DNA of 49,565 nucleotides from an uncultured Verrucomicrobiota bacterium (GTDB lineage: Bacteria; Verrucomicrobiota; Verrucomicrobiia; Limisphaerales; UBA1100), in the NCBI GenBank assembly GCA_902551155.1, contig CACDBG010000007.1, positions 1 through 49,565 of the forward strand, read 5' to 3'. Below, one piece after another: positions 27,154 through 29,699 of this stretch (position 1 is its first letter; every line of letters starts with the position of its first letter). A program made the position numbers and the translations under genes. The notes under the pieces are model-generated. The model was not told where the DNA came from. It ran no database searches and saw nothing but the letters and a program-made list of their open reading frames with translations.

Positions 27154-28146
27154 TTATTTATTTTTTGCAATTAGTTTTTTCAGCTCTTCTTGCATTTCTG
27201 GAATGTTAAATTCATGTGGGCCCCGACCGCCTTTGTAGGCAATGCGCCCATCCTTACTGATTATGTACATTCGGTCAGGCATAGCGTCAAAGCTCCGAGA
27301 GACGGTGTCATCAATATCGTCCACTAAAAGAGGGATGGTGAGGTTGAGTCCAGCAGAGCAGGTTAGGGCTATCTGTTGTCGCTCGCCGTAGGTTGTAGGT
27401 TGTGCGATATTTAATGGTGAAGGACGCGATGATCCCAATGGGTGTGCTTCCCGGATATACACCCAGTAGAAGTCAGCCTGTTTTCCATATGTTTCGTATG
27501 CTTGTTGGAGGCGCCCGGCCTCACGAGAGAAAGGGCCTCACGTATAGGAACCGAAAATAATTACTGATAGCCGTGTAATCTTGTCAAATTCAAGCGACCC
27601 TTTTTGGGTTATGAATTCAGCTGACACCTTCGGAGCCGGGGTTCCTACTTTGGGTCCACGATCTGGGCGACCACTAGAGGAGCGTTCTTTGCTGCGCCTC
27701 CAAGCTTGCCATTCCTCAGCACTTACGTTGCCATCTTTATTCGTGTCGCTTTCATTTAGAATTGTGTCGAAGAATTTTTGCCATTCCTTGGAGTTAAGTG
27801 ATTTGTCTTTGTCACCGTCTATGGCCGAAAACAGCTGTTGAGCTAGGTTGGGACTGCTTCCTTGATTCGGTCTTCGGAATCCCCCGCCTGAACTCCCTCT
27901 TCCTCCTGACCCACCGCGCATTCTGTTCTGGCGCATATCTTCACGTTCCTCAGGGGAAAGAAAATTGTTCTTATCTTTGTCGAATTGGTCGAACATTTCC
28001 TTGGGGCCCGGAAATTCTTCACGAGAGATTTTGCCATCTCCATTAGCATCCATTTGACGTCCAAATCCTCCCCCTCTTTGCTGTTGGGCATGCAGGATCG
28101 AAGATCCTATAATCAGTACCAACCAAAATTCTAATACTCGGCGCAT
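27154..28146 (-). CDS. EF-hand + iodothyronine deiodinase-like selenoprotein (UGA at 27538-27540 read as selenocysteine)
   Basis: Gene calling splits this into a 202-residue and a 102-residue ORF. They are in the same frame, separated by one TGA and 25 open codons, giving one protein of 330 residues with Sec at 203. Signal peptide 1-20. Four EF-hand calcium loops lie at about 33-44, 56-67, 110-121 and 134-145 (e.g. DANGDGKISREE, DTNKDGNVSAEE). A Gly/Ser/Arg-rich linker precedes the redox domain (about 165-330): VIIFGSYT, UGA, GPFSREAGRLQQAYE, then FYWVYIREAHP, PLLVDDIDDTVSRSFDAMPDRMYII and GRIAYKGGRGPHEF. These match the deiodinase family, where the active-site Sec follows FGSCT and is followed by PPF. 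A SECIS-like hairpin follows the UGA. Iodine chemistry is not implied; bacterial members are probably thiol/selenol oxidoreductases. Confidence 0.88.
27508..27522 (-). promoter_or_regulatory. Bacterial SECIS element of the deiodinase-like gene
   Basis: On the minus strand GAGGC (27518-27522) pairs with GCCUC (27508-27512) around the loop CGGGC. The loop begins 21 nt after the UGA at 27538-27540 and has G at its second position. Position and loop match the hairpin of the SelW-like gene (CGGGU, 22 nt), which supports both. Confidence 0.7.
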
Positions 28147-28205: not shown

Positions 28206-29699
28206 ATGAACCGTGCGGTTTCTTTCTTTATATTCGTTGGGCTGGGTTTTGGTTCCTTCTCGGCTGAAAAGCTTTCCAGTGGATTAATTGCCAAGGGAAC
28301 TAAATGGGAAACTTTCTACTATCAGCGTGACAGTGGAGTTAAAGGGCCGGTTGTTTTTATTACCGGAGGTGTACATGGAAATGAGCCAGCAGGTGCCCGT
28401 GCAGCCGAACAAATTCGCCATTGGAAAATCAAAAAAGGGCGTCTTATTGTGGTTCCCAAGGTAAATAAGCCTGGGTTAATGGCTGATATTCGTTACTTAC
28501 CAGGTAAGCCAAAGGATCTCAGGGATTTAAACCGGAATTTTCCCAAGACCAATCAAGAGCCTACAGCTAAGGACATGCCAGCTTCCGCTTTATGGGAATT
28601 GTTGAAGACCTCACAGCCGGATTGGTTTATAGATTTGCATGAAGGGTATGATTTTCATCAAATTAACTCTGATTCGGTTGGCTCGTCCATTATCGATGTA
28701 AAAGGAGAATTGGCTGATGCAATTGTACCCAAGATGTTGGAGGTAGTGAATGCCACTATAACTGACAAGAAGAAAAAACTCGTGCGTTTGCGTTACCCGG
28801 TCAATGGAAGCGTGGCACGGGCGGTTTATGAAAGACTCGGGGCGGCTTCCATGATTCTAGAGACTACAAAAAAAGATCAGCCAATTTCCAAGCGTACAAG
28901 ACAACACCGACTTATGGTTCATACACTTTTAATGCACTTGGGCATGGTTAATAAGGAAACTGCACACGTTTTTGTGCCCTCAAAAACTGAAGGTATAAAG
29001 ATTGCTGTTTATGATGCTGGTGGAGTGGGTGGGAGTGGTCCGCGAAATTTGGATAAGGTTTTTACCGGTAAAAAAGTCATCATAAGACGTGTGGGAGCAG
29101 TTGATATTAGAGTCGGGGTTCTGGATCAATTTGACTTGGTGATTTTCCCGGGGGGTAGTGGGAGCAAGCAGGCTGCGGCACTTGAGGTAGAAGGTCGTGA
29201 GGTGGTAAAGAAGTTTATTAATCAGGGAGGAGGGTATGTTGGTATATGCGCTGGAGCTTATTTAGCGGCTTCCAATTACCAGTGGTCCTTAGGTATCAGT
29301 AATCATAAGACCTTTTGTGAATCGATTGATTTGCCGGAGATTGGGCGCAAGAGCATGTGGTATCGTGGTGCATCGGCGCCAGTAAAGATGGAGCTTACGG
29401 AGGAAGGCAGGAAAATACTAGGTAATGTAAAGGGGGTCTTTGATGTTCGTTATCACAATGGTCCGATTATGTCTGCTATGGGTAAGGAAGGGGTGGGACA
29501 TTTTCGTAGTTTGGCAACTTTTCGTAGTGAGGTCTCGAGGTACAAGCCGCAGGAAGGAACGATGGTCAACACGCCAGCGATTATTGTGGGTGAATTTGGT
29601 AAAGGGCGGGTGCTCTGCATTAGTCCACATCCTGAATCTACACCTGACCTCTACAAGCTAGTTCGAAATGCGATTCGATGGACGGTTCCTAACAAGTAA
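28206..29699 (+). CDS. Fusion of M14-type deacylase (AstE/AspA-like) and BPL_N glutamine-amidotransferase-like domain
   Basis: A 497-residue exported protein (signal peptide to about residue 20). The first domain (about 25-255) is an M14-family zinc hydrolase of the succinylglutamate desuccinylase/aspartoacylase type: Zn ligands H57-x-x-E60 in GGVHGNEPAG, the third ligand H145 in DLHEGYDF, RDLNRNFP, and a catalytic Glu in MILETTKK (about 218). The second domain (about 265-495) resembles BPL_N, a class I glutamine-amidotransferase-like fold: VIFPGGSGSKQAA, then GGGYVGICAGAYLAA with the nucleophile-elbow cysteine, and a late HPES. The two domains are rarely expected in one exported protein. It is divergent from the deiodinase-like gene (59-base gap). 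Confidence 0.85.
   Translation: MNRAVSFFIFVGLGFGSFSAEKLSSGLIAKGTKWETFYYQRDSGVKGPVVFITGGVHGNEPAGARAAEQIRHWKIKKGRLIVVPKVNKPGLMADIRYLPGKPKDLRDLNRNFPKTNQEPTAKDMPASALWELLKTSQPDWFIDLHEGYDFHQINSDSVGSSIIDVKGELADAIVPKMLEVVNATITDKKKKLVRLRYPVNGSVARAVYERLGAASMILETTKKDQPISKRTRQHRLMVHTLLMHLGMVNKETAHVFVPSKTEGIKIAVYDAGGVGGSGPRNLDKVFTGKKVIIRRVGAVDIRVGVLDQFDLVIFPGGSGSKQAAALEVEGREVVKKFINQGGGYVGICAGAYLAASNYQWSLGISNHKTFCESIDLPEIGRKSMWYRGASAPVKMELTEEGRKILGNVKGVFDVRYHNGPIMSAMGKEGVGHFRSLATFRSEVSRYKPQEGTMVNTPAIIVGEFGKGRVLCISPHPESTPDLYKLVRNAIRWTVPNK

Follow-up and report, generated by a model that had tools for sequence, protein, structure and literature searches.

A very probable EF-hand/deiodinase-like selenoprotein with one selenocysteine and one conserved cysteine in a marine verrucomicrobial lineage

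On the minus strand of the window, the whole stretch of 49,565 nucleotides of uncultured Verrucomicrobiota DNA that was analysed, two open reading frames (27538-28146 and 27154-27462) share a frame, with one TGA (27538-27540) and 25 open codons between them, which raises the question of whether this TGA ends a short EF-hand protein or is read as selenocysteine (Sec) within a longer redox protein. At this base composition, and with conservation not yet counted, the chance of finding 127 open codons after a stop is about 0.001. The features of the complete gene, in which the internal TGA is residue 203, are collected in Table 1; as read from its N-terminus, the encoded protein is apparently exported.

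Table 1. Features of the EF-hand/deiodinase-like gene, in window coordinates
Feature	Position	Strand	Basis
Complete gene, 330 aa + TAA stop, one internal TGA	27154..28146	minus	Homologues match over full length
Signal-peptide-like N-terminus MRRVLEFWLVLIIGSSILHA, residues 1-20	28087..28146	minus	Read from sequence; hydrophobic start shared by homologues
EF-hand loop 1 DANGDGKISREE, residues 33-44	28015..28050	minus	Pfam EF-hand families and loop alignment
EF-hand loop 2 DKDKNNFLSPEE, residues 56-67	27946..27981	minus	Pfam EF-hand families and loop alignment
EF-hand loop 3 DGDKDKSLNSKE, residues 110-121	27784..27819	minus	Pfam EF-hand families and loop alignment
EF-hand loop 4 DTNKDGNVSAEE, residues 134-145	27712..27747	minus	Pfam EF-hand families and loop alignment
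Deiodinase-like thioredoxin-fold domain, residues 168-324	27175..27645	minus	Pfam PF00837; Dio3/Dio2 by sequence; fold of low-confidence model
UGA codon, selenocysteine 203, catalytic position	27538..27540	minus	Invariant in Sec-form sequences; Cys in two genomes without SelA
Candidate bacterial SECIS apical hairpin GAGGC-CGGGC-GCCTC	27508..27522	minus	15 nt 3' of UGA; loop CG[G/T]GC
Cys263, sole Cys of the protein	27358..27360	minus	Invariant at +60/61 in EF-hand Sec forms

The C-terminal part of the protein is deiodinase-like, given that T4_deiodinase (PF00837) matches residues 168-324 with 74.8 bits against a Pfam cut-off of 27. A six-sequence profile aligned FGSYT-U-GPF, the context of the TGA, with FGSCT-C-PPF in the Sec-to-Cys mutant of mouse Dio3 that was crystallised (4tr3; E = 2e-20) and also matched Dio2 (E = 6e-17), and no AhpC-TSA or Redoxin Pfam match was obtained in the window protein at E 0.001. 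In a fold search with a low-confidence model of the domain (pLDDT 54; the full-length AlphaFold model has pLDDT 50) Dio2 and Dio3 were the top two matches, followed by peroxiredoxins and DsbE/ResA-type proteins, and at this confidence the fold matches serve to corroborate the sequence result. The NCBIfam profile NF038285 (deiodinase_rel), which like the window protein spans both an EF-hand and a deiodinase part, was matched over positions 45-340 of 347 with 183.6 bits (E = 7e-54), below its curated cut-off of 250, so that the window protein stands outside the curated equivalog. In the N-terminal part, four loops of 12 residues, forming two EF-hand pairs, carry ligands at positions 1, 3, 5, 9 and 12, as in canonical EF-hands, and the EF-hand families score above the Pfam cut-offs. 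An earlier note on this DNA, made from the letters alone, had described a single frame with the same coordinates, ORF pair and gap, four EF-hand loops followed by a deiodinase-like redox domain, a UGA at the active-site position of the family and matching motifs on both flanks, and all of this agrees with the present results. From these features we infer calcium binding by the loops and an oxidoreductase activity of the domain.

Whether the TGA is decoded was examined in relatives drawn from the same genus, the same family, other families and classes, and phylum-level relatives. The TGA was invariant in the approximately 23 Sec-form sequences examined, the window included, where it occurs as FGSYTUGPF, FGSHTUGPF, FGSYTUPPF or FSSFTUPPF, and together with both flanks it is kept across genera and families. 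SelA scored over its cut-off in 19 relative genomes with the TGA form, and nearly all of the SelA-positive TGA-form genomes scanned also gave a tRNA-Sec score of more than 60 bits and a SelB match exceeding the cut-off. Only two relatives (L034 in genome G044 and L126 in G584) have FGSCTCPPF, with Cys at the UGA position, and SelA was not found in either genome; since these two sequences group as one clade in the tree, the Cys replacement may count as one evolutionary event. Another family member without SelA, G010, has no copy of the gene either. In the closest relative (G005), whose protein is 95% identical, a tRNA-Sec(TCA), selD, selA, a transglutaminase-like gene and selB are contiguous, selA and selB being profile matches and selD and the transglutaminase-like gene being labelled from sequence and position. 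In genome G017, a SelA match (C26:86621-87922) itself contains one in-frame TGA.

Downstream of the TGA, pairs with unsaturated synonymous sites gave dN/dS values of 0.03-0.15. Complete synonymous identity was observed in only 5 of 172 codon columns, four of which are codons +1, +6, +7 and +8 after the TGA, and synonymous constraint is extreme at codons +1 and +6 to +9. The candidate hairpin of Table 1 has all five positions paired in 13 of 13 sequences (65/65 cells) with one double change, a modest covariation that was reached by 39 of 500 shuffles, and a longer alternative fold, in which the UGA itself is paired, shows 93.6% pairing. A candidate SECIS is thus predicted, which may fold either as the hairpin or as the longer UGA-including structure. 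An Rfam search of the candidate stretch gave no match. Relatives consisting of the deiodinase-like part only show CCAGGUUGG, which looks similar to the upper stem-loop in SECIS elements known from bacteria. It is reasonable to suppose that a coding-region hairpin placed just 3' of UGA203 would help its decoding as Sec.

A true stop at this position would mean that the EF-hand protein is truncated and that a small independent ORF or the remnant of a pseudogene lies after it, a reading that finds some encouragement in the window's own bin (G000, only 50% complete), which shows no Sec machinery: neither SelA nor tRNA-Sec was detected there, and SelB and SelD did not score above their cut-offs. 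Two candidates from this bin were set aside, a tRNA-Sec candidate of 47 bits that is a tRNA-Ser(TGA) according to ARAGORN, and a SelD candidate that lies below the cut-off (60 versus 125 bits). Against a stop stand the conservation of the TGA and of both flanks across genera and families, and the fact that the downstream ORF begins only at a GTG located 25 codons further into the domain. The earlier note had also pointed to a Cys at the UGA position of relatives and to purifying selection 3' of the UGA as the observations to look for; the former is present in the two genomes lacking SelA and the latter is strong, and both argue against termination. The true-stop reading is therefore strongly disfavoured already and we consider it scarcely credible; it is almost certain that the internal TGA encodes selenocysteine. 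Sequence analysis shows the domain architecture, the conserved UGA, the replacement by Cys in Sec-less lineages, selection 3' of the UGA, a candidate SECIS and the single origin of the fusion described below, and it is very probable that the gene product is a selenoprotein of the EF-hand/deiodinase-like type, with Sec encoded by the UGA. Gene callers taking the TGA as a stop split this protein in two, and the active site is lost.

All EF-hand fusions fall into one clade (support 100/98), which includes L119 from another family of the order, and on this tree the fusion arose once among the sampled relatives. One sequence nesting in the verrucomicrobial clade, L012 (contig PBOG01000215.1), is labelled Planctomycetaceae and is probably mislabelled or mis-binned. 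In L028 (G017, C5:285943-286870) the EF-hand and deiodinase parts are in different frames, owing to a frameshift or an assembly error. Genome G011 has tandem deiodinase-like genes without EF-hands, both with a TGA (L046, on C109), and carries an EF-hand fusion on another contig. Lipobox-like signal peptides were read from the sequences of L031, L032 and L046b, which are among the relatives with the deiodinase-like part only. A plasmid search returned one distant match, a deiodinase-like protein of Mycolicibacterium (L143, 2420-3235 of NZ_CP126902.1), whose gene adjoins one of the carboxymuconolactone decarboxylase family and one with a glutaredoxin domain, a possible clue to redox partners. 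In the window, a divergent neighbour located 60 bp away (28206-29699) encodes an AstE/AspA-type catalytic domain and a BPL_N domain. This neighbour is kept beside the gene in L009-L012 and is absent from that place in L013-L016; given that the pairing is confined to the former, it provides no operon argument, and a functional linkage to the neighbours was rejected.

The distribution of Sec and Cys residues bears on how the active site could be recycled. All Sec forms have a distal Cys, at +60 to +66 after Sec, and in none of them is the proximal position (two residues before Sec) a Cys, this residue being Tyr, or His in L119, whereas in both Cys forms a Cys is present at the proximal position and none at the distal one. 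That Sec forms have only the distal Cys and Cys forms only the proximal Cys suggests that Sec203 is resolved by Cys263, conservation being the evidence for this step. In such a cycle the Sec selenolate would attack a small substrate, oxidised or halogenated, within a Dio/peroxiredoxin-like pocket. Cys263 would then resolve the oxidised Sec, and an envelope thiol donor would carry out the recycling after that step; taken on its own, we regard this cycle as plausible but tentative. In the Dio3 alignment, Cys263 does not coincide with the classical distal Cys and falls in the helix that precedes it. The distal Cys of human Dio1, which occupies a different position, showed no catalytic role, and the proximal Cys is required for Dio1 recycling with glutathione (PMC9141512).

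Vertebrate Dio1-3 (4tr3, 9h48) resemble the window protein in fold, in the FGSxTU motif, in YIxEAHP and in the Arg275 equivalent, but their proximal Cys is Tyr here, residues Phe258, Trp207 and His219 are replaced, and in place of their membrane anchor the window protein has a predicted exported form with EF-hands. In the alignment with mouse Dio3, with residue roles taken from PMC7506546, the equivalents of Ser167, Thr169, Sec170, Tyr197, Glu200, His202, Arg225 and Arg275 are kept, while Phe258 and His219 are changed to Pro, Glu259 is changed to Asp and Trp207 is missing. Because several substrate-pocket residues differ, the protein is unlikely to be a thyroid-hormone deiodinase.

A related possibility is that of an exported Sec dehalogenase removing iodine or bromine reductively from marine aromatics, as vertebrate deiodinases do with thyroxine. 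Membership in the deiodinase family and the retention of much of the Dio3 active-site anchor network, including Arg275, are in line with it, but the three replaced Dio3 residues are not, and the family naturally carries Phe258Pro, a change that lowers Dio3 activity (PMC7506546). Moreover, the proximal Cys needed for Dio1/Dio3 recycling is lacking, and the neighbouring genes, encoding a sugar hydrolase, the AstE/BPL_N protein and an alpha/beta hydrolase, include none for dehalogenation; we therefore consider a dehalogenase rather unlikely. The presence of exactly one Sec and one conserved Cys would instead suit a peroxiredoxin-like exported peroxidase or a thiol-disulfide reductase in which Sec203 is peroxidatic and Cys263 resolving, as would the rank of peroxiredoxins and DsbE/ResA-type proteins directly after Dio2 and Dio3 in the search with the low-confidence fold model. 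The sequence is clearly nearer to deiodinases than to any peroxiredoxin, which speaks against this assignment, and we give it not quite an even chance. A broader proposal is speculative and we judge it quite unlikely as a whole: an exported selenoenzyme, stabilised by calcium, would dehalogenate marine compounds reductively or reduce them in some related way, and would be recycled by a new scheme in which a distal Cys resolves Sec, whereas Sec-less relatives have the resolving Cys beside the active site.

The EF-hands could in principle be a calcium switch turning the redox domain on and off, with a logic comparable to that of SELENON, the animal EF-hand selenoprotein. SELENON likewise has EF-hands and a redox centre with selenocysteine in a single protein that is exported or luminal; its redox domain and motif are different, and the resemblance would be one of logic only. 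Four loops with good ligands, retained by most homologues, would fit a switch. Such a role is difficult to reconcile with the apparent export of the protein, probably into sea water rich in calcium, and the first EF-hand pair is missing from the homologue L029 while the fourth loop is degenerate in relatives of genus g5; a calcium switch thus appears improbable. Extracellular EF-hands exposed to sea water are probably loaded with calcium constitutively, which makes a structural or docking role likelier than a switch, and the EF-hands probably act as a module for stabilisation or docking.

Fusions of this kind were already known, and the window protein is a well-supported new example. A fusion of an EF-hand domain (PF13499) with a deiodinase-like selenoprotein was reported in 2021 from Global Ocean Sampling metagenomes (Fig. 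2B of PMC9402790) and, by its description, it has the same two domains, belongs to marine microbial selenoproteins and also has an extra conserved Cys. The host lineage, a SECIS and a mechanism, which the portion of that source considered here does not contain, are provided or proposed in this work; what is added is the host lineage, the single origin of the fusion among the sampled relatives, the candidate SECIS and the layout of one Sec and one Cys. Deiodinase-like selenoproteins had been described in 2008 from an earlier part of the same survey (PMC2398784), and the bacterial members (PF00837; PMC2398784, PMC9312934, PMC13188914) are like the window protein in their domain, catalytic Sec and occurrence in marine bacteria. 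Recent reviews list UxxC as a motif of the family (PMC9312934, PMC13188914), but the window protein has UGPF, its sole Cys lies 60 residues downstream, and EF-hands are added. Because PMC2398784 lists no motif for the deiodinase-like family, we did not treat UxxC as defining.

A fusion known from ocean survey reads is now tied to a marine Verrucomicrobiales family, in which nature provides a Sec/Cys comparison where the partner Cys appears to move. Given that a 2026 review (PMC13188914) describes what bacterial deiodinase-like selenoproteins and similar ones do as largely unknown, a search for a substrate could well begin with an exported form that has many close relatives.
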